Below are positions 1,596 to 15,388 of a DNA stretch of 64,000 nucleotides, piece after piece (positions within the stretch are counted from its first letter, which is position 1; each line of letters starts with the position of its first letter). This stretch comes from Oscillospiraceae bacterium (GTDB lineage: Bacteria; Bacillota; Clostridia; Oscillospirales; Ruminococcaceae): contig SVMR01000002.1 in assembly GCA_015067315.1 (NCBI GenBank), positions 62,001-126,000 of the forward strand. The letters are read 5' to 3'. The translations under genes and the position numbers were made by a program. The notes under the pieces are model-generated. The model had not been told where the DNA came from. It saw nothing but the letters and a program-made list of their open reading frames with translations, and did not search any database.

Positions 1596-3290
1596 ATGAA
1601 AGTAAGCGAAATGCCTTATGAGCATATTCCTCTTGAGGAATTCAGCAAAAGCGCAATGGAAGTTATAAACGGAGTAAAAAACGCAAAAAACGTTGAAGAA
1701 GTTCTCGAATGGCGCGAAAAATTCCGCGATCTTGTAATAAGATATTCCACCGCAATGAATCTTTCTTATATAAGATACAGCTGCAATACCGCAGACGAAT
1801 TTTATGTAAAAGAAAACGATTATTTTGATGAGATCAATCCCCAGATCGGAAATCTCATGAATATGTACAACGACGCTCTTCTCAATTCTCCTTTCAGAGC
1901 CGAACTTGAAGAAAAGCTTTCCCCTGTTTATTTCAAACATATGGAAGTTCAGGCAAAAGCAATGTCCCCTGAAATAATCGAAGATATGATTGAAGAAAAC
2001 AAAATCGTATCCGAATATTCAAAACTCATGGCAAGCATGGAATTTGAATTCCGCGGCGAAAAATTAAGCCGCGCAGCTCTTGCGGGCTATTTCAAATCCG
2101 ATGACCGCGAAACAAGAAAAGAAGCCTATACCGTTCTCGGAACCGTTATGAACGGCTATGCGGACCAGCTTGACGATATTTATGACCGCCTTGTAAAAGT
2201 CCGTACCAAAATGGCTCAGAAGCTCGGTTACAAAAACTTCGTTGAACTCGGTTATTACAGAATGGAACGCGTTTGCTATGATAAAAAGGACGTTGAAACC
2301 TTCCGAAAAAACGTTCTTGAATCCATCGTTCCCGTTGTTGCAAAACTCCGCAGCGAAAACGCAAAAGATCTCGGAATCGATAAATACATGATTTATGATA
2401 ATGACGTTATCATTCCCGGCGGCGACCCAAGACCTTCCGGCAGCAAGGAAGAAATCTTCAACGCAGCAAAAGAAATGTATCATGCAATGAGCGATGAATC
2501 CGCTGCATTTATCGATCTTATGCTTGAAAACGAAGCTTTTGACGTTGAATCAAGAAAAAATAAATGGGGCGGCGGTTACTGCACCGAAATCGCAAAATAT
2601 AAGCAGCCTTTTATCCTTGCAAACTTCAACGGTTCCGCAGATGACGTTGACGTAATGACCCACGAAGCGGGACATGCTTTCAATGCGTTCCTTATTGCAG
2701 ATAACAAATTTGCTCTCGAAATCGGATGCGGCGGAATGGAAACCGCAGAAACCCATTCCATGAGCATGGAATTCTTCGCATGGAAATATATCGATAAATT
2801 CTTCGGCGAAAACGCAACAAAATATAAATTCATGCATGCGCTCGGCGCGCTTTCATTTATTCCTTACGGCACCATTGTTGACTATTTCCAGCATATTGTT
2901 TATGAAAACCCGGAAATGACCCCGGCGGAAAGAAACGAAACCTGGAAAAAACTTTGCGCGGAATTCCTTCCGCATATCAATCTTGAAGGCGTTCCTTTCC
3001 TTGAAGACGGCCGCCGCTGGCAGTATCAGATGCATATTTATGAATCTCCTTTCTATTACATCGATTATTGCCTTGCGCAGACCGCCGCATTCGGATTCCT
3101 TCTTGCTTCCCTCGAAGATTATGACGATGCTTTTGCGCGTTATATTCGCCTTATGAAACAGGGCGGCGAGCAGTATTACGATCTTCTTCTTGAAGAAGCA
3201 AAAATCCCCTCTCCTTTCAAAGAAGGCGCTCTTAAAGAACTTGCAGAAAAAGTCGAAGCTCTCCTTGCAAAAATCAAAACCGAAATTTAA
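1596..3290 (+). CDS. M3 family oligoendopeptidase
   Basis: 564 aa with metallopeptidase motif DVMTHEAGHAFNAF. Confidence 0.93.
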   Translation: MKVSEMPYEHIPLEEFSKSAMEVINGVKNAKNVEEVLEWREKFRDLVIRYSTAMNLSYIRYSCNTADEFYVKENDYFDEINPQIGNLMNMYNDALLNSPFRAELEEKLSPVYFKHMEVQAKAMSPEIIEDMIEENKIVSEYSKLMASMEFEFRGEKLSRAALAGYFKSDDRETRKEAYTVLGTVMNGYADQLDDIYDRLVKVRTKMAQKLGYKNFVELGYYRMERVCYDKKDVETFRKNVLESIVPVVAKLRSENAKDLGIDKYMIYDNDVIIPGGDPRPSGSKEEIFNAAKEMYHAMSDESAAFIDLMLENEAFDVESRKNKWGGGYCTEIAKYKQPFILANFNGSADDVDVMTHEAGHAFNAFLIADNKFALEIGCGGMETAETHSMSMEFFAWKYIDKFFGENATKYKFMHALGALSFIPYGTIVDYFQHIVYENPEMTPAERNETWKKLCAEFLPHINLEGVPFLEDGRRWQYQMHIYESPFYYIDYCLAQTAAFGFLLASLEDYDDAFARYIRLMKQGGEQYYDLLLEEAKIPSPFKEGALKELAEKVEALLAKIKTEI

Positions 3291-3330: not shown

Positions 3331-3340
3331 TAACAAAAAA

Positions 3341-3376
3341 ATCCGTGTTCAGAATCTGAACACGGATTTTTGCTTT
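3341..3376. terminator. Intrinsic terminator for the opp operon end
   Basis: aaaaatCCGTGTTCAgaatcTGAACACGGattttt. Confidence 0.75.
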
Positions 3377-3652
3377 TTAATACATTCCGGTTAAAAGAAT
3401 TGCGGCGCCGATTATAAGAATCAGTATTATTGCGGCAAGCGGAACCATCATTCCGAGAGCTGCAACAATCATTGCAGGAAGATCGCCTTTTTCCATTTTA
3501 TCCGCAAGCTGAACTTCGTTTTCAATGGCTTTCGGGTCAATTTCTTCCCTCTCATATTCTTCGTGCAAATCGTGACCGTTCTGTTCTGCCTGGAGCTCGA
3601 ACGCACGGTCAACCCTTTTAGGAAACAACATAAAAAGAGTTTTTTTTGCCAT
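3377..3652 (-). CDS. Small hypothetical protein with C-terminal transmembrane helix
   Basis: 91 aa; hydrophobic C-terminus MIVAALGMMVPLAAIILILIIGAAILLTGMY. Confidence 0.6.
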   Translation of the reverse strand: MAKKTLFMLFPKRVDRAFELQAEQNGHDLHEEYEREEIDPKAIENEVQLADKMEKGDLPAMIVAALGMMVPLAAIILILIIGAAILLTGMY

Positions 3653-3680: not shown

Positions 3681-5213
3681 TTATTCCTGCTCTGCTTTGT
3701 GATTAAGCTTGTGGTGGCAAGCAACAAAGTGATTGGGAGATACTTCTTCCCATTCCGGAACAACCTGTTTGCAAATTTCGGTGCAGTATGCGCATCTGGT
3801 ATGGAATTTGCAGCCTTTGGGAGGATTTACCGGGCTGGGGATATCGCCTTCAAGAATCTGGAGGTCTTTATGACCTTCATCTTCGGTTGTAGGAATAGCA
3901 TTAAGAAGTGCTTCGGTATAAGGATGTACAGGATTATCGAAGATTTCCTGAGAATCTGCAAGTTCAACCATGTTACCGAGATACATAACGCCGATTCTGT
4001 CGGAGATATATTTAACTACGGAAAGGTCATGGGTGATAAAGAGATAAGTAAGATCCTGTTTCTCTTTAAGATCCTGAAGAAGGTTGATAATCTGTGCCTG
4101 AATGGAAACGTCGAGTGCGGAAACTGCTTCGTCGCAAACAACGAATTTCGGGTTGGTTGCAAGAGCACGGGCAATACCGATTCTCTGACGCTGACCACCG
4201 GAGAACTGGTGCGGGAAGCGGTGGAGGAAGTAAGGCGCAAGACCGCATTCATCCATAACTTCAAGAACTCTTTCCTGCATACGTTCGCCTTTGTCGCGAA
4301 CCATGTCATGTGCAACCATGCCTTCGCTGATAATCTGACCAACGCTCATACGAGGGTTAAGAGAGGAATACGGATCCTGGAAAATAAGCTGCATATCGCG
4401 GCGAAGTTTGCGCATCTCGTTATATTCAAGACGGGCAAGGTCGATACCGTTATCTCTCATAGCCTCATATTTATCGAACTCGGGTTCATTCTTATACTGT
4501 TCGCGAAGAGCATCGATAGCTTTGTTTGCTTCAGAAATATTTTCTTCGGTTTTTGCAATTTCGGAATTGATTGCTTCAACTTTTGCTCTTGCGGAAGAAA
4601 GTTTGTCTGCATTAACACTGCCGGGCTTTTTGTTCTCATCGAATTCAAGATCGTCGAGAGTAAGCTGAGCTTTTGCAAGTTTTTCGATAAGAGCAGATTT
4701 TTCTTTTGCAAAACCGTATTCTTTGGAATATGCGGCAACAATTTCACTTACGTCTTCAACAACTACAAGACCGCCGAAAATCTTGGTGATATTGAGCATT
4801 GCGTCTTCTGCAAGTTTGCGTGCCTGGTCAAGTTCTGCATGTTTCTGATACTGCTGTTCTTCGGTAAGAGCAGCATATTCTGCTTCAATCTTTGCTTTCT
4901 TCTCTTCAAGGTTTTTCCATTCGCTGCGAAGCTTGGAAAGATTTTTGATTGTCTGCTCTACATATTTGGGAGCAATGTCATCAAGAGATTTGCCGTAATA
5001 CATAGTACGGCCGTAAGTCTGATGATAAAGCTGAAGAATGGTACGGCCAAGGGTGGATTTTCCGCATCCGGATTCACCAACAAGACCGAAGGTTTCGCCT
5101 CTGTAAATATCAAGGGAAACTCCGTCGTTTGCTTTTACAAAACGACCCTTCTTAAGCGGGAAATACTGTTTAAGGTTGCTGATACTGAGCAGGACTTCTC
5201 TGTTATTTTCCAT
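3681..5213 (-). CDS. oppF: Oligopeptide/dipeptide ABC transporter ATP-binding protein OppF with a large internal insertion
   Basis: Walker [11 protein letters not shown]-loop [14 protein letters not shown], signature [16 protein letters not shown]-terminal Cys-rich opp/dpp tail; ~180 aa extra between Walker A and Q-loop. Confidence 0.93.
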
Positions 5214-6192
5214 GTCTGTCCTCCTTATTGGGATAGAAGCAGCGTACCTGGTGATGTTCGTTTACATGAACAAGCTGGGGTTCTTCTTCCCTGCATTTGT
5301 CAGTTGCATATTTGCAGCGCGGAGCAAATTTGCATCCCTTCGGAAGATCGAGCGGATGCGGTACTGCGCCGGGAATTGCATCAAGACGGGTGTTTGCCGG
5401 AGTATCAAGTCTCGGAATGGAGAGCATGAGTCCTTCGGTGTACGGATGAGAATGTTGATTCTGATGGAAAATAGTGTGAGCAGGAGCCATTTCAACTACC
5501 TGTCCGCAATACATAACCGCAACATCATCAGCGATCTGGTTAATAACGCCAAGGTCGTGGGTGATGAAAAGAACTGCGGTGTTGTTTTTATCTTTAAGCT
5601 CGTTGATGAGTTTAAGAATCTGTGCCTGAATGGTAACGTCAAGCGCGGTGGTGGGTTCGTCGGCAATAAGGATTTTCGGTTTGCAGGCAAGTGCCATAGC
5701 AATCATTACACGCTGACGCATACCGCCGGAAAGCTGGTGAGGATACTGTTTTGCAACAACATCCGGGTTAGGGATTTTTACGTCCGCAAGAAGTTCAACT
5801 GCTTTTGCTTTTGCTTCTTTTTTTGACATTCCCTGGTGGTTCATAAGCGGTTCGCAAAGCTGTTTTTCAACAGTGAAAACCGGGTTAAGGCTGGTCATGG
5901 GTTCCTGGAAAATAACAGAAATATCATTTCCGCGGATCTTATACATATCAGCTTTGGAAAGATGAATAAGGTCTTTTCCGTCGAAGGTGATATCGCCTCC
6001 GTCAATGTAACCGTTTTCGTCAAGAAGACGGAGAACGCTCATTGCGGAAACACTTTTACCGGAACCGGATTCACCGACAAGTCCGAGAACTTTACCGGAA
6101 TCAAGGGAGTAGCTTACGCCGTTAACCGCTTTAACAATACCGCGTTTGGTTTTAAAGAATGTTCTAACATCGTTAAGTTCCAATAATGCCAT
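5203..6192 (-). CDS. oppD: Oligopeptide ABC transporter ATP-binding protein OppD
   Basis: [59 protein letters not shown]. Confidence 0.95.
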
Positions 6193-6207: not shown

Positions 6208-8037
6208 TTATCTACCGTTGGATTTCGGGTCAACAGCATCACGGAGAGCGTCGCCCACAAGGTTGATACAAATAGTGCAGATACCGAAGATAGCTGCGGT
6301 GAATACCCAACGCCACCAATACTGCTGAATAACAACAGAGTTGTTTGCGCCGTTGAGCATATTACCCCAAGTAGGAGTAGGCGGTGCAATACCAAAGCCC
6401 AAGTAAGAAAGAGTGGATTCGGTAAGCATGCAGGTTGCAAAGTCAAGAGTTGCGGAAACAAGGATAAGGGAAAGAACGTTAGGAAGAATGTGTTTGAATA
6501 CGATAGTTCCTTCACGAACACCCATTGCCTGTGCCGCGGTTACATATTCCTGTTCACGCTGGCTAAGAATCTGAGCACGGATAAGGCGGCAGGTTCCGGG
6601 CCAGGAAAGGATACCGAGAACGACCATGATGAGGTACATTCTCTGTTCAACAGAAATTCTTGTACCGATAATTGCGGAAAGAATCATTGCAAAAGGAATG
6701 AAAGGAAGACCGCCGATAACTTCTGCTATACGCATTACAATCATATCGGTCCAGCCGCCGAAATAACCGGCGATACCGCCGAGGATAATACCGATTACAA
6801 GAGAAATTACAACTGCAATTGCACCAACGGTCATGGTAACCTGACCTGCGTTTACAAGACGGGTAAGAATATCGCGTCCGAGGTTATCGGTACCGAAAGC
6901 ATAGCCTTTAAGACCCCAGGTTTCGGTTTCTCCGTTGGAGTTGATTGCATAGTTCTGATAGAAACCTGCAAATACGGTTTCGATATCATGTTCAATAACA
7001 GACTGCGGAACTTCGGACTGTCCGTGGAAGTTGTTACCCCAGGAAATAACTTCACCGTTTTCAAGAAGTGCGGTGTAGTGTTTAAGACCGCCGTAAAGTT
7101 CAACAGGCTTGGAGCTCATTTCGGGAACCTCGTTGAGTCCGTCGGAAACGTTGCCCCAAACAGTGATTTTACCGTCTGCGTCAACTGCAGCAACGGTGTT
7201 GCCGGTTGCAGCGATATCAACAATGTTATCAAGACCTTCGGGAAGACGGTCTGCAATTGCGTTGCTCTGAAGACCTACGTATGCAACGGTTCCGTCATCA
7301 AGAAGTGCCACGCAGTTATAGGTGGTAAGAGCAATTTTTTCAATGTGACCCTGATATGCTTTTCTTACCTTAATATCAGCCATGTTCTGGTTACCCCACA
7401 TATAGAGGTTACCGTCTTCGGTAAGAGCGGCAGTAAACTGGAAACCTGCTTCAAGCTGTTTGAAGCCAAGGTTCTTTTTCATCATCATTGCGGTGGTGAT
7501 TTCGCTGGGGAGGTTGGTCTGACCAAGACGGTCGTTACCCCAAACGTAAACATTGCCAGCATCGTCGATTGCCGCAATATGGTCATAACCTGCTGCAATC
7601 TGTTCGATATGAGCTTCTTTAACTTCTTCGGGAATTACGCCAACGTCGATAACTTCGGTGATTTTGGTATAACCCCAAGTATAAAGATGACCGTCGTTAT
7701 CAACACCGACGCCGAAGGTGGTACCGGGGGTGATATCTTTTACGTTGCCTTCAAGACCTTCCGGAACGGAAAGCATGGAAAGAGTCGGAGGAACGTTGGT
7801 CTGGGTGTTGTCGTTATAAGAAAGGTCAAGAACAAAGAATTTCGGACCAATCATAACAAAGAGGAAAATGCAGAGGAAAATGATAAGACCGGTCATACCA
7901 AGCTTGTTGCTGGTAAAGTTGCGGATAATCATTCTGGTAGGGCTCTGGAGCTGTTCCTCTTCCATGAAGCTGAGCTGTTTGTTGCGATTGCCGAAAAGGC
8001 GTGCAAGAAGGGAAGGTTTTTTATTTTCTTTACTCAT
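6208..8037 (-). CDS. oppC: Oligopeptide ABC transporter permease OppC with inserted RCC1-like beta-propeller domain
   Basis: N-terminal TM1, then seven RCC1-type repeats (e.g. HIAAIDDAGNVYVWGNDRLGQTNLP), then canonical permease core from FGTDNLGRDILTRLV. Confidence 0.93.
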   Translation of the reverse strand: MSKENKKPSLLARLFGNRNKQLSFMEEEQLQSPTRMIIRNFTSNKLGMTGLIIFLCIFLFVMIGPKFFVLDLSYNDNTQTNVPPTLSMLSVPEGLEGNVKDITPGTTFGVGVDNDGHLYTWGYTKITEVIDVGVIPEEVKEAHIEQIAAGYDHIAAIDDAGNVYVWGNDRLGQTNLPSEITTAMMMKKNLGFKQLEAGFQFTAALTEDGNLYMWGNQNMADIKVRKAYQGHIEKIALTTYNCVALLDDGTVAYVGLQSNAIADRLPEGLDNIVDIAATGNTVAAVDADGKITVWGNVSDGLNEVPEMSSKPVELYGGLKHYTALLENGEVISWGNNFHGQSEVPQSVIEHDIETVFAGFYQNYAINSNGETETWGLKGYAFGTDNLGRDILTRLVNAGQVTMTVGAIAVVISLVIGIILGGIAGYFGGWTDMIVMRIAEVIGGLPFIPFAMILSAIIGTRISVEQRMYLIMVVLGILSWPGTCRLIRAQILSQREQEYVTAAQAMGVREGTIVFKHILPNVLSLILVSATLDFATCMLTESTLSYLGFGIAPPTPTWGNMLNGANNSVVIQQYWWRWVFTAAIFGICTICINLVGDALRDAVDPKSNGR

Positions 8038-8055: not shown

Positions 8056-9075
8056 TTATTTATCTACACGGACACGCGGGTCAACAAGACCATAGCTAAG
8101 GTCCATTACAAGCTGACCGAGAAGGCTTACTACGATGTAGAACATCTGGATAGAAAGTGCAAGCTCGAAGTCGTTGTTCATAAGACCGGTATAGTAAAGT
8201 GCGCCCATGCCGTTAAGACCGAAAGTGTTTTCAATAATTACCGAACCGCCGAAAATACCAAGGAACCAGCCGATGATAACGGTGATTACGGGAAGAAGTG
8301 CGTTGCGCCATGCGTGAGAATAGATAACAACTTTTTCACGAAGACCTTTTGCACGTGCGGTACGGATGTAATCCATGCTGAGAGCTTCGATCATAGCTGC
8401 ACGGACATAACGGGTCATACCGCCGAGAGAACCGAAAGTCATTACAATTACCGGAAGGCAGATGTAATAAAGACGGTCAAGGAATGCCTGCATTCCGACG
8501 TAGTCGGAACCGGGAGTCTGGGAACCGGTTACGGGGAACCAACCCAGTTTAACTGCAAAAATCCAAATAAATATAAGGGCGATAATATAAACAGGAATAC
8601 TGTAACCAACAATGGTAATAACCTGTGTTATCTTATCTATTATGCCGTTTTTATGAACAGCGCAGTAAATTCCGAGCGGAATAGTAATTCCCAATGCGAG
8701 AATTGTGGAGAAAATATTAATGAAAATAGTGTTCTCCATTCTGTCCGGAATTATTTCCGCAACGTCTTTTTTATAGACTTGGGAAAATCCGAAATATCCC
8801 TGGAGCATGCCATGGAAGGTATCGGTCTTGGTGTCTTTTGCAAGACCCATCCATCTTGCATAACGAACCGGAATCGGGTCGTCAAGACCATACTCTTCGC
8901 GAAGCTGCTGATATCTTTCCTCATACTCGTCCGGTTTAAGAGTCTGTCTGAGAGGCTCCAATTCCGCACGGGCAGGGTCAGTAGGGATAAGGTTGTAGAC
9001 CGAGTACATCAGGAACGATACTACAAAGAATACGATGATCATGTAGCCAATACGTTTGATAACATACTTTGTCAT
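8056..9075 (-). CDS. oppB: Oligopeptide ABC transporter permease OppB
   Basis: TKYVIKRIGYMIIVFFVVSFLMYS ... NAL LPVITVIIGWFLGIFGGSVIIENTFGLNGMG. Confidence 0.95.
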   Translation of the reverse strand: MTKYVIKRIGYMIIVFFVVSFLMYSVYNLIPTDPARAELEPLRQTLKPDEYEERYQQLREEYGLDDPIPVRYARWMGLAKDTKTDTFHGMLQGYFGFSQVYKKDVAEIIPDRMENTIFINIFSTILALGITIPLGIYCAVHKNGIIDKITQVITIVGYSIPVYIIALIFIWIFAVKLGWFPVTGSQTPGSDYVGMQAFLDRLYYICLPVIVMTFGSLGGMTRYVRAAMIEALSMDYIRTARAKGLREKVVIYSHAWRNALLPVITVIIGWFLGIFGGSVIIENTFGLNGMGALYYTGLMNNDFELALSIQMFYIVVSLLGQLVMDLSYGLVDPRVRVDK

Positions 9076-9273: not shown

Positions 9274-11208
9274 TTATTCTGCGTTCTCGATGGAAGCGTA
9301 AACAATTGCCTGGTTGAATTCCCAAAGGCTGGATTCTACGAAATCGTTGAGCCAATCAGGATAAATGGTGTAGTAAACGTTGGAATAAAGCGGGATTTCA
9401 GGAAGGAGTTCGTTCCATTTGAGGATGAACTGCTGCCAGAGATCGAGATAACCTTCACGGTCGGAAGGATCTACGCCGTAAACCATGTCCATAGAAAGCT
9501 GGTCGAGTTCTTCATCGAAGATGTAGTTGGTGTTGTAGCCAAGTTCTACATACTGAGGATCGAGGGAGAAGCTATAGGACTGGTCGTAAACAGGAGTGAA
9601 GTTGGTTGCAAGGTTGTACATGCCGTAAGTTTTTACGCCGTACTGATCGCCCTGGGTTGCATCACGATACATGTAGTTAAGAAGTTCGGAGAAGGTCATA
9701 ACGGTCTGTTCGATTACCATACCTGCATCAGCGGTCTGCTGGCCTTCGGAAAGCATGGTTACGAGAAGTTCGGAAACAGGGTTTGCTTCAGAAGAGGACC
9801 ATTTGATGTGAAGAGGCATAAGGATTCTGCCGTCAGCAAGAGTTACGTTGAGTTCGTAATCGCCTGCTTCTTCAGGAGTTACTTCTTTGTAACGTACGCC
9901 GGAAACATATTCGTTACCTTCAGCGTCGAGTACCCAACCGTCAGCTACGAGAAGTTCAACAGCTTTAGCGGGATCGTATGCATAGGTATCGATTTCGTCA
10001 GCGAAGAGTTCTTCAGATTCTTTGTACATCCACATTGCAAGGCCGTAAGGACCATGTACTACAGAACCGAAGCCCTGGCAGAAGGTGTTTGCGAATTCGT
10101 TTCTGTCAAGGAGGTATGCAACTGCATGACGTACTGCCTGGAACTGGGTAGGACCAAAGTCGCACTGGAACTGGATTTTGCCGTAGCCGTTACGTTCGAA
10201 GGAAACGGTTTCGTAACCACCCTGTGCTACAAGGTCAAGAGCGGTGTTAACTTCGGTACCGTCGGAGAGAGAATCGAGAACGTCGATTGCACCGGTTTTG
10301 AGTGCGTCGAACTGAGTTGCGGTATCGGATTTAACGATAACGAGCTGCTGGATCTGGGGTTTAACGCCTTCGAAGTTACCAGCATAGTTGGGGTTGATTT
10401 CGAGAACAGCTTCAAGAGCGCCGGTATCGATGGATTTGATTACGTAAGGACCAGCAGAAACTGCGTCTGCATACATCCAACGTGCAGCATCGATTTCAGC
10501 AGCAACGAGTTCGCCGCCTTCGAATTTAGCACCGGTTTCGCCTTCAACTACAACGAGTTCTGCGGAAGCATACATCGGGATGTAGAGAGGAGTAAGGGAT
10601 GCATAGCTGAGTTCATAGAAGTAAGGAACATAATCAGAAGCGATGGTGATGGAGTAAGTGTACTCGTCGATGAGATGAACACCGGAGAGTTCAGTTGCTT
10701 CGCCGTTCTGATATTCAGTTGCGCCTACTACCATTGCAGCAGTAAGTTTTGCACCTGCTTCAGCAGCTGCAGGAGAATAGCCGATGAGAGCATATGCTAC
10801 ATAGTTAGCAGCAGTGATGGGCTCACCGTTGGAGAATACAAGACCTTCGTTGATTTTTACGGTGAAGGTTTTGGTTCCGTCTTCGTTGAGAACGGATTCA
10901 ACGCCGCCGCAGACAGTGGGGTTAACAATGAGTTCGCCGCCCTGGTTGTAGGTGATCGGAGAATAGTCATTGATAAGGTCACGGATCATCTTATCGGTTG
11001 CGTTGTTGGTCCACCATGCTCCGGGGCCGATATCGCCGGAAATTTCGGTAGTGGAACCATAGATAAGTCTGTTGGGGCGAGATTCAACTTCGGGCTGAAC
11101 GTCGGAAGAGGGATCATCGGGGTTTTCAACAACAGGCTCGTCGTTGCCGCATGCTGCGAGAGAGAGCATCATAACTGCGGCAAGAAGAAGTGCGAGAAAT
11201 TTCTTCAT
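9274..11208 (-). CDS. oppA: Oligopeptide ABC transporter substrate-binding lipoprotein OppA
   Basis: Lipobox MKKFLALLLAAVMMLSLAACG; family 5 extracellular solute-binding protein. Start trimmed to MKKF (11208). Confidence 0.92.
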   Translation of the reverse strand: MKKFLALLLAAVMMLSLAACGNDEPVVENPDDPSSDVQPEVESRPNRLIYGSTTEISGDIGPGAWWTNNATDKMIRDLINDYSPITYNQGGELIVNPTVCGGVESVLNEDGTKTFTVKINEGLVFSNGEPITAANYVAYALIGYSPAAAEAGAKLTAAMVVGATEYQNGEATELSGVHLIDEYTYSITIASDYVPYFYELSYASLTPLYIPMYASAELVVVEGETGAKFEGGELVAAEIDAARWMYADAVSAGPYVIKSIDTGALEAVLEINPNYAGNFEGVKPQIQQLVIVKSDTATQFDALKTGAIDVLDSLSDGTEVNTALDLVAQGGYETVSFERNGYGKIQFQCDFGPTQFQAVRHAVAYLLDRNEFANTFCQGFGSVVHGPYGLAMWMYKESEELFADEIDTYAYDPAKAVELLVADGWVLDAEGNEYVSGVRYKEVTPEEAGDYELNVTLADGRILMPLHIKWSSSEANPVSELLVTMLSEGQQTADAGMVIEQTVMTFSELLNYMYRDATQGDQYGVKTYGMYNLATNFTPVYDQSYSFSLDPQYVELGYNTNYIFDEELDQLSMDMVYGVDPSDREGYLDLWQQFILKWNELLPEIPLYSNVYYTIYPDWLNDFVESSLWEFNQAIVYASIENAE

Positions 11209-11440
11209 TTGAATTTCCTCCTTAATTTTTATTATGTCATACAAAAATCAATAATACTTCATTGTGTATAACATCCATATTATTATAATCGACAACAAGC
11301 GAATTGTCAATGAAAAAGTTGAATTTTTCTACAATATATGCATTTTTTGATGAAAAATCTTTCATTTTTAGCCGCTTTAAGTTATGTAAAGTTCAAAAAC
11401 TTTACATAAACTTTGATTTTTTAGCGTGTTAATACGATAA

Positions 11441-11475: not shown

Positions 11476-12711
11476 TCAATAATAACTCATTCTTTTCTTT
11501 TTAATATGCGCTGTAACTATTTTATATATGATATAAATAATTATAACAATTATTAAAAAGACTGCCTGGAAAATAACCGAATTGCTTCCCTGCGCCATAA
11601 TATCAGTCCAAAGCGCATCGGTAAGAGTTGTTGTTTCAACCGGAAGAGTAAGCAAAGCGTCAAGCGACGCAATGAATTCTTCGTCCGGATAAGCGATTTC
11701 GTTCTCAACAAGCTCCTCATCAAGAAGTTCCAACGCGCCGATGTGGGGTGTGGAATATCCGACATAATAGCTGTTCGCGGCCGCAACGGTTGATTCGCAC
11801 ATATAGTTTATATACATTTCCGCGGCTTCTTTGTTCTTTGCCCCTTCGGGAATACAGAACGAATCTATAAAGATACTCGTATTATCCGGAAGAAAAAAGT
11901 TAAGATCCTCGTTAACGTCCATCATGAGAACCGCGTCGCCGTTGTAATAAGGTGCAACTGCTGCTTCCCCGCCCTCCATTTTGTCATAAATCTCGTCCAT
12001 GACGTAGGCCTGAACAAGAGGTTTCTGGGCACGGAGATGTCCCGCCGCTTCCTCAATTTCCATTTCATCGGTTGTATTGAAGTCATAACCGAGGTCAAGA
12101 AGCGAAAGAGCAAAAGCATCGCGGGAGTTTGAGAACATAAGCATATTGTCAGCATATTTCTCGTTCCAAAGGATATTCCAGCCTGTGAGATCTTCCTCAT
12201 CGACCATTGTTGTGTTGTAAATAATTCCTACAACGCCCCAATACATCGGAACGGAATATTCATTATTCGGGTCAAAATTTGTATTTTTATACTTTTCGTC
12301 GATGTATTTATAGTTCGGAATATTATCAAAATCAAGCTTCTGAATCATTCCTTCGGAAATCATCTTTCCGATCATATAATCGGAAGGAACGATTATATCA
12401 TAGCTTGCTCCGCCGCTTTTAAGCTTTGTATAAAGTTCTTCGTTGGAAGCGAAGAGAGTGTAGTTTACTTTGATTCCCGTAAGTTTTTCAAAATCTTCGT
12501 TGACGTCAAGAAAGTTGACTGAATCGTTCGCAACGTATTCGCCCCAGTTGCAGACGTCTATCTCTATTCCCTGCCCCTGAAACTTCTGGTAATAATCATA
12601 ATCCTCAACTTCGGTTGAATAGCCTTCCGCTTCGCTGTAATATCCGAAAGCGGAAACCGAAGAAAGAATTATCATCAGAACGGCAAGAAAGAATCCGATA
12701 AATTTTTTCAT
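11476..12711 (-). CDS. potD: Spermidine/putrescine ABC transporter substrate-binding protein PotD with C-terminal TM segment
   Basis: WGEYVANDSVNFLDVNEDFEKLTGIKVNYTLFASNEELYTKL...; fourth gene of a potABCD order; C-terminal hydrophobic segment. Confidence 0.9.
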   Translation of the reverse strand: MKKFIGFFLAVLMIILSSVSAFGYYSEAEGYSTEVEDYDYYQKFQGQGIEIDVCNWGEYVANDSVNFLDVNEDFEKLTGIKVNYTLFASNEELYTKLKSGGASYDIIVPSDYMIGKMISEGMIQKLDFDNIPNYKYIDEKYKNTNFDPNNEYSVPMYWGVVGIIYNTTMVDEEDLTGWNILWNEKYADNMLMFSNSRDAFALSLLDLGYDFNTTDEMEIEEAAGHLRAQKPLVQAYVMDEIYDKMEGGEAAVAPYYNGDAVLMMDVNEDLNFFLPDNTSIFIDSFCIPEGAKNKEAAEMYINYMCESTVAAANSYYVGYSTPHIGALELLDEELVENEIAYPDEEFIASLDALLTLPVETTTLTDALWTDIMAQGSNSVIFQAVFLIIVIIIYIIYKIVTAHIKKKRMSYY

Positions 12712-13515
12712 TTATCCTTCCTCCTTTGCCATATTGCGTTCCGCATTCTTTTTGTCCTGTCTTGCGCCGTTGATGTTAACGAGAACAAGAATGAAAAGAA
12801 CGACAACAAACATAATTGTTGAAAGGGCGTTGATTTCCGGGCTTACCTTCATTCTTACCATTGAATAAATTACAACGGAAAGAGTCTGTGAATCTGCCGC
12901 TCCGGTGAAAAAGCTTACCGCAAAGTCATCGAAGGAATATGTAATCGAAAGAAGAAAACCCGCTGAAATTCCGGGCATGATTTCCGGAAGAACAACTTTT
13001 CTGAATGCCTGGGTCGGGTTGCAGCCAAGGTCAAGCGCCGCATTATAGACGTTTTTATCAAGCTGGCGGAGTTTCGGAAGCACGTTGAATATTACAATCG
13101 GAACGTTGAAAGTAATATGCGCAAGGATAAGGGAAGTGAATCCGAGTTCGAGCCTTATAAATACGAAAAGAAGCATCAGCGAAACACCGATTATAATATC
13201 CGGATTCATCATCGGGATATATGTGATGTTAAGCAGAAGCGACTGCATTTTCTGGCTCATTGCGTTGATTCCGATTGCGGCAAGGGTTCCGATAATTACC
13301 GCGCAAACGCCGGCAACAAGCGCAACAATAAGGGTGTTTCTGAACGCCGTAAGAATAATATCGTTTGTAAAAAGCTTTTCGTACCATTTAAAAGTGAATT
13401 CGGTAAAAACAGTACGGCTTTTTGCATCATTGAAAGAAAATACAATGAGCACGGCGATTGGAAGATAGAGGAATGCATAGATGATGCCGAGATAGAATTT
13501 GGAAAGGAATTTCAT
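12712..13515 (-). CDS. potC: Spermidine/putrescine ABC transporter permease PotC
   Basis: YLPIAVLIVFSFNDAKS...FTFKWYEKLF; binding-protein-dependent permease motif. Confidence 0.93.
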   Translation of the reverse strand: MKFLSKFYLGIIYAFLYLPIAVLIVFSFNDAKSRTVFTEFTFKWYEKLFTNDIILTAFRNTLIVALVAGVCAVIIGTLAAIGINAMSQKMQSLLLNITYIPMMNPDIIIGVSLMLLFVFIRLELGFTSLILAHITFNVPIVIFNVLPKLRQLDKNVYNAALDLGCNPTQAFRKVVLPEIMPGISAGFLLSITYSFDDFAVSFFTGAADSQTLSVVIYSMVRMKVSPEINALSTIMFVVVLFILVLVNINGARQDKKNAERNMAKEEG

Positions 13516-14336
13516 ACTACCATTCTTCCCTCCTTCTCCACTTTGTCAGAATCGAACTGATTCATTACGCTCATGCAGATAAGAATTATAATCATGAGCA
13601 CGAAGGAAATTGCGGAACCGAGGTTCGGGTTATAGCTGTTGCTGCTGAACTGCATTTCGATAAGGTCGCCGATCATGAGTTCGGAACCTCCGCCGAGCAT
13701 TTTTGAAATAATGAAGGTACTTACGGAAGGAATGAATACCATCGTAATTCCCGTGCTGATTCCCGGAAGGCTTTGCGGAAGAGTTACATGGAGAAAAACC
13801 TGGAAAGGATTTGCTCCGAGATCCTGCGCCGCCTGAACAAGGGAATGATCCATCTTCATCATAACTGTATAAAGCGGAACTATCATAAAAGGAAGATAGT
13901 CATATACCATTCCGAGAACAACCGCGCCCTGGGTATTGATCATTTCAAAAGGTCCGATTCCGAAAATTCCGAGAAAACGGTTAAGAAGACCGTTGTTTTC
14001 AAGAATCGTCATCCAGGAATAGGTTCTGAGAAGAAAGTTCATCCACATCGGAAGCATGATGAGCATGAACATTGTTCTTCTGATATTGCTTGTTTTTCCC
14101 GCCATAAGAAATGCAAAGGGATATCCGAGAACAAGGCAGATAAGCGTTGCAACAAAAGCAAGGAAAAGAGATTTTATAATAACCGGAATATAATCCCCGA
14201 CTCGGATTATATTCTGCATTGTAAATTCGCCCGTGCTTGTGGTGAATGCAAAATATGCCACCATAAAAAGCGGAACAACGATAAAAATCGCCATAAATGC
14301 GATATACGGAAAAGCAGGATAACGTGATTTTATCAT
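13512..14336 (-). CDS. potB: Spermidine/putrescine ABC transporter permease PotB
   Basis: [22 protein letters not shown]; operonic overlap with potA and potC. Confidence 0.93.
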
Positions 14337-15388
14337 TTTTCTGCCTCCGCCATCTTATGCATGATATGAATATCGTCCGGAATTACGGAAAGTCCAACCT
14401 CCCTGCCCGGTTCCTCATAAAGAGTTGAATGGATTTTCCAGTCAAATCCTTCGGAAGAAACGACGATTTCATAATGCACGCCTTTAAAAATAATGCTTTC
14501 AACTTTTCCGGTAATCTGTCCTTTTTCCGGTTCGGAAATTTTAATATCCTCCGGACGGATTACAACGTCAACGTTTTCGTTTTCATCAAAACCAAAGTCA
14601 ACGCAGTCAAAATCCCTTCCGGCAAAACTGACAAGATAATCTTTCTTCATAACGCCGTCGATAATATTGGATTCACCGATAAAATCCGCAACGAAAGCAT
14701 TGACCGGTTCGTTATAAATATCGATAGGAGTACCGATCTGCTGAATTTCGCCGGCGCGCATTACTATTACGGTGTCGCTCATGGTAAGAGCTTCCTCCTG
14801 GTCATGGGTGACGTAAATAAAAGTAATCTTCGTTTCGCGCTGAATCTTTTTGAGTTCGATCTGCATTTCTTTGCGGAGTTTAAGGTCAAGGGCGCCGAGA
14901 GGTTCGTCAAGAAGAAGAACCTGCGGTTTGTTGATAAGCGCTCTTGCGATTGCAACGCGCTGCTGCTGGCCGCCGGAAAGAAGGTTAACGTCGCGGCGTT
15001 CATATCCGCGCATATTGACAAGATCGAGCATTTCAAAAACTCTTTCCTTTATTTCTTCATCCGGAACTTTTTTAAGCCTTAAACCGAAAGCAATGTTTTC
15101 ATAAACGTTAAGGTTAGGAAAAAGTGCATATTTCTGGAATACGGTATTGACTTCCCTTTTATAAGGCGGAAGATCGTTGATTCTTTTTCCATCAAAAAAA
15201 ACGTCCCCGCTTTTGGGATTTACAAAGCCTCCGATTATACGCAAAGTGGTTGTTTTACCACAGCCGGAAGGTCCCAGAAGTGTGACGAATTCGTGGTTGC
15301 GGATATCGAGATTAATATGGCGAAGAACACTTTCCCCGTCAAATTCCACAACGATATCCTTAAGTCTAATAATGGCATTATTTTCCAT
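14333..15388 (-). CDS. potA: Spermidine/putrescine ABC transporter ATP-binding protein PotA
   Basis: Walker [33 protein letters not shown]-terminal TOBE-like region. Confidence 0.94.

Follow-up and report, generated by a model that had tools for sequence, protein, structure and literature searches.

To our knowledge, the solved peptide importers are all of one compact architecture. The closest described systems are DppABCDF and OppABCDF of E. coli and OppABCD of M. tuberculosis (PDB 8z1v, 8z21, 8j5q). In DppABCDF, the loop between the first two transmembrane helices (TM1-TM2) of the permease DppB carries a scoop which enters the binding cleft of DppA, and DppA caps both DppB and DppC (PMC12136057). 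The maltose importer MalFGK2, of type I, has a large extracellular folded domain, MalF-P2, in one of its permease subunits, and works cited in PMC3150292 describe the interaction of this domain with the binding protein. BLIP-II (PDB 1jtd, 3qhy), a free secreted beta-lactamase inhibitor, is built of seven blades with three strands each and has a protein-binding turn face.

The importer described here is encoded in a stretch of 64,000 nucleotides from an Oscillospiraceae gut bacterium (contig SVMR01000002.1, positions 62,001 to 126,000), referred to below as the window. It shares with the peptide importers named above the operon content, the OppC core, the family 5 binding protein, the cysteine-rich C-termini of OppD and OppF and the expected pairing of OppC with OppF. 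Solved OppC and DppC chains contain only a short TM1-TM2 segment, whereas the window OppC carries a large conserved domain, and solved OppF and DppF chains match both sides of a likewise large and conserved insertion in the window OppF but not the insertion itself.

The opp operon of the window

ORF analysis of the window revealed an oppA-oppB-oppC-oppD-oppF operon on the minus strand, running from 11244 to 3681 (Table 1). Judged by its domains and operon, the system is an OppABCDF-type oligopeptide ABC importer. Besides OppC, whose Opp/Dpp permease domains OppC_N (34.7 bits) and BPD_transp_1 (116 bits) score above the Pfam cut-offs, the operon encodes a family 5 binding protein, another permease and a pair of oligo_HPY ATPases. 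None of the named NCBI oligopeptide permease equivalogs was reached, the best being Opp4C (300 bits against a cut-off of 350), and the system forms a distinct branch in the operon tree. The ORF of 91 aa which follows oppF is conserved in close relatives only. It should be noted that the total count of sigma-70 matches in the region, which include the one upstream of oppA, is not above chance.

Table 1. Features of the opp operon, in window coordinates
Feature	Position	Strand	Description and basis
sigma-70 consensus match	11282..11310	-	TTGACA-17-TATAAT, 12/12, upstream of oppA
oppA	9274..11244	-	family 5 solute-binding lipoprotein; likely start MKKFLALL, 644 aa; SBP_bac_5
oppB	8056..9075	-	339 aa, permease partner of OppC; ORF and Pfam
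oppC with predicted RCC1 propeller	6208..8037	-	609 aa; complete open ORF, Pfam, AlphaFold2
OppC TM1	7837..7902	-	residues 46-67 (GMTGLIIFLCIFLFVMIGP); sequence, OppC_N Pfam 32-84, model helix 45-67
predicted seven-bladed RCC1/BLIP-II-type propeller	6904..7764	-	residues 92-378, TM1-TM2; Pfam, AlphaFold2, Foldseek, phmmer
junction WGLKGYAF	6895..6918	-	residues 374-381, running into GTDNLGRD; fixed length
canonical OppC core	6208..6894	-	GTDNLGRD to C-terminus, residues 382-609 and stop; BPD_transp_1, structures 8z21_B, 8z1v_B
oppD	5203..6192	-	329 aa ATPase, normal length
oppF	3681..5213	-	510 aa ATPase with helical insertion
OppF insertion	4464..4970	-	Walker A to Q loop, residues ~82-250, four long helices; alignment and predicted structure
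91 aa ORF	3377..3652	-	predicted membrane protein directly 3' of oppF, before the putative terminator
hairpin	3337..3371	.	strong, 16 pairs, T tails on both strands, past the 91 aa ORF; probable shared terminator

A predicted beta-propeller in the TM1-TM2 loop of OppC

In the window OppC about 285 residues of RCC1 repeats separate TM1 from the FGTDNLGRD core. The initial annotation had placed an RCC1-type propeller in this extracellular loop at 6904-7764, which corresponds exactly to residues 92-378, and Pfam, AlphaFold2 and Foldseek agree with it. Pfam assigns OppC_N to residues 32-84, RCC1 repeats to about 92-375 and BPD_transp_1 to 416-605. RCC1_2 matched the insert with E=2.4e-32 (110 bits against a cut-off of 22), five stretches passing individually, and an RCC1-like domain model matched at 1.9e-37, while the full-length WD40_RLD model stayed under its cut-off (130 against 150). 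In phmmer searches the insert matched BLIP-II, UVR8 and RCC1 chains and the core matched OppC and DppC chains. The claim that other OppC proteins are short in this region also held, as control OppCs have only 72-119 residues ahead of the GTDxxGRD motif.

The fold predicted by AlphaFold2 came out as a propeller, with pLDDT mostly 80-93 over residues 92-378 and two 10-residue blocks near 68. It shows the seven blades that had been proposed, each of three strands, the first strands starting at 99, 144, 192, 232, 272, 311 and 352. The membrane part of the model is poor because the alignment was shallow (ten sequences). Of the seven RCC1-type motifs that had been read from the sequence, the one of blade 4 (VALLDDGTVAYVGLQSN) does not show the WG signature; in the prediction it is nevertheless a normal blade. 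The OppC insert is thus, by this model, a closed seven-bladed propeller of the RCC1/BLIP-II type. The spacing from blade 7 to the GTD motif is six residues and was constant in 70/70 testable homologues.

BLIP-II was the top match in both Foldseek (TM-score 0.77-0.78, normalised on the target) and phmmer. The two differ in that BLIP-II is free and secreted while the OppC propeller is inserted into a loop of a membrane permease; their identity is about 25%. When the BLIP-II interface residues were placed on the OppC propeller by repeat register, they were not kept as such, and binding of class A beta-lactamases is not expected from the sequence.

Distribution and origin of the propeller

OppC with the propeller was present in 21/199 sampled genomes of the family, 30/394 of the order, 17/391 of the class and 14/399 of the phylum, these samples overlapping in a few genomes, and the propeller also occurs in sampled families outside the class. 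Named genomes with the same architecture include MAGs from sheep, goat and roe deer gut, an Erysipelotrichaceae MAG and other Clostridia. Several other loci of the homologue search (L013-L024) turned out to be unrelated RCC1 proteins without an OppC core.

A tree of 63 operons was built from the OppC core, OppD and the OppF core with the OppF insertion removed. All propeller operons (39/39) were grouped together by a single branch whose SH-aLRT support was 100%, which never happened with shuffled labels. The quick tree method and some long outgroup branches call for caution, yet the propeller clade stands well apart. OppA of the propeller operons likewise formed its own clade in an OppA-only tree of 36 operons. 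Since the propeller operons form one clade, the simplest account is a single gain of the propeller, followed by inheritance along with the operon. An RCC1 protein elsewhere in the same genome was considered as its source and rejected, as only three RCC1_2 matches exist genome-wide and all are in oppC. Between close relatives dN/dS was 0.09-0.24 for the propeller and 0.01-0.09 for the OppC core. The propeller is under purifying selection, though it changes faster than the channel, its sequence divergence being about twice that of the OppC core.

The helical insertion of OppF

The window OppF, with 510 aa against the usual ~330, is longer by an insertion of about 170-190 aa that separates Walker A from the Q loop. 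The model of residues 82-250 is a helical bundle with pLDDT mostly 64-92; the remainder of the OppF model is unusable because of the shallow alignment. An insertion of 150-215 aa was found in OppF of 36/38 propeller operons and of 0/25 operons with other OppC types. When the two traits were searched separately in the class sample, all 17 of the 17 genomes with propeller OppC had the OppF insertion, and among the other genomes it was seen in G668 only. G668 is a candidate at most and no counterexample, because its contig of 3.7 kb is too short to show OppC and the genome is 78%-complete. In propeller operons L117 and L119 OppF is plain; as both lie inside the propeller clade, the absence is probably a secondary loss, and the two insertions are therefore not strictly coupled.

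In E. coli DppABCDF, DppC pairs with DppF (PMC12136057), and the elaborations of OppC and OppF would therefore share one half of the transporter. As all propeller operons belong to one clade, their co-occurrence is by itself no proof of a shared function. In the open-library literature no paper was found that links RCC1 with OppC or oligopeptide permeases or describes the architecture. The doubly decorated importer is old and is conserved in many Bacillota, and it has apparently not been described before.

A second type of insertion in OppC

Ten loci of Bacillota (L145-L149, L154-L158) also carry a large extracellular insertion at the same site of OppC, in this case helix-strand repeats which extend the TM1-TM2 loop by about 220-380 residues. 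It shows no similarity to the propeller, and the operons carry an ordinary OppF. Nine of these loci could be placed in the tree, where they are a separate clade among the short-loop OppCs. No consistent Pfam match was obtained, one member touching CBM_X2 just below the cut-off, and no solved relative was found. A common origin of the two insertion types was rejected on the profile comparison (hhalign probability 0.1%, no profile similarity) and the tree. As two unrelated domains occur in separate clades, the OppC TM1-TM2 loop has been extended at least twice, which suggests that this site is a hotspot for retuning peptide uptake. The second insertion type, the co-occurring OppF insertion and the separate clade of OppA go beyond the initial annotation.

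Possible functions of the propeller

Docking of OppA, binding of peptide or peptidoglycan fragments and gating of the channel had been suggested as functions. Of these, docking fits best with the position of the equivalent loop of DppB and with weak co-variation. The OppC propeller could be an additional docking and hand-over platform for OppA, and this is the reading we favour, though tentatively. The propeller sits in the OppC loop corresponding to the scoop region of DppB, its pseudo-symmetric TM1-TM2 counterpart in the partner permease, which contacts the binding protein. The scoop differs in being helical, about 30 residues long and part of DppB rather than DppC; the window OppB keeps its own TM1-TM2 region. 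Since blade 7 ends six residues before GTD at the membrane surface, the propeller is expected to stand rigidly over the channel half that OppC forms. From this place it would hold OppA or help to retain released peptide, as MalF-P2 holds MalE, and the OppF bundle, in the same C/F half, would aid assembly or couple this half to ATP hydrolysis. MalF-P2 belongs to another permease family, another loop and another fold, and the OppC propeller is not a homologous fold in the same loop; if our reading is right, it would work like MalF-P2 without homology.

The chain exits the propeller on the face formed by the turns from first to second strand, and on geometric grounds that face is expected to point to the membrane side. 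It includes the turn residues that, glycines apart, are best conserved in the propeller (F108, D152-H153, Q200, H320 and Y360-Q361-N362-Y363), and the same turn face binds target proteins in BLIP-II (interface residues in PMC10817188). A rank test of conservation between the two turn faces of the propeller was not significant (p=0.40). Beyond the common operon signal, propeller divergence correlated with that of OppA (partial r 0.39), OppB (0.36) and the OppF insertion (0.19); as the value for OppB nearly equals that for OppA, the signal for OppA may stem from rapid evolution common to the parts outside the cell. The lengths of propeller and OppA increase together (Spearman 0.56, uncorrected for kinship and mainly owed to one clade). 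The sub-clade of L120, L121, L123, L127-L129, L137 and L140 combines longer propellers with an OppA of 732-815 aa, in which the N-terminal tether accounts for much of the additional length. It counts against the docking reading that ordinary Opp systems manage to dock OppA with no domain of this kind.

RCC1/BLIP-II propellers are binding modules, and the aromatic and polar residues conserved on the turn face would also suit a propeller that is a receptor in its own right. It would bind the cell wall or a substrate class such as peptides, muropeptides or glycopeptides, and would concentrate substrate or anchor the importer close to where the substrate arises. That the second OppC lineage independently acquired another domain in this loop is what would be expected if the site displays binding modules. 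We regard a receptor as unlikely, although worth keeping in view, because the propeller has no known ligand-binding motif, substrate binding is already supplied by OppA, and a junction that is short and fixed, together with conservation that is old and extends over the clade, is more fitting for a structural partner than for a variable receptor.

It could also be that the outer propeller and the inner OppF arm act jointly on the C/F half and govern its assembly or its ATPase activity, for instance by keeping the importer off without OppA or by recruiting a cytoplasmic partner. Both insertions are on subunits that pair (PMC12136057) and they occur nearly always together, but this may be plain co-inheritance in one clade. 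L117 and L119 keep the propeller without the OppF arm, and the divergence of the two insertions co-varies weakly (partial r 0.19), so that such a regulatory role seems fairly unlikely.

The rate of divergence, about twice that of the OppC core, and the tolerance of a different large insertion at the same site in another lineage would be in line with a selectively tolerated ornament or structural spacer that has no specific partner; this is improbable in view of the low dN/dS, the retention of the propeller throughout the clade and in many families, and its blade-specific conserved residues. That the propeller OppC is an assembly, frameshift or MAG chimera artefact, as might be feared since the named relatives are metagenome-assembled genomes, can practically be discarded, because the survey of homologues found the same in-frame junctions in about 70 distinct proteins from many genomes, some of them single-contig (G592, G609).

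Returning to OppA docking, the importer could represent an undescribed subtype of peptide ABC importer, widespread in Bacillota, in which the OppC/OppF half has been rebuilt. The propeller would replace or supplement docking of the binding protein, the OppF arm would couple to assembly or ATP use, and the OppC TM1-TM2 loop would be a general graft site. We put this forward only as a cautious suggestion. If true, the loop would be a site where bacteria graft domains to retune peptide uptake. Propeller and OppF arm are combined in dozens of genomes of Bacillota, and most of the named ones are MAGs from animal guts. This combination offers a natural experiment on binding-protein docking and on the division of labour between the transporter halves.

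Genes around the operon

An M3-family oligoendopeptidase (TIGR02289) is encoded at 1596-3290 on the plus strand, convergent with the opp operon. M3 peptidases are also found near several other opp operons, both with and without the propeller. Such a neighbour may hint at transport of peptides, which is suggestive only. As a marker of the subtype the peptidase neighbourhood was rejected, since it is not enriched (8/38 propeller operons against 4/27 others). A predicted spermidine/putrescine-type ABC importer operon lies directly upstream of oppA (11476-15388, minus strand), and a putative sigma-factor-like protein is encoded at 809-1501 on the minus strand.
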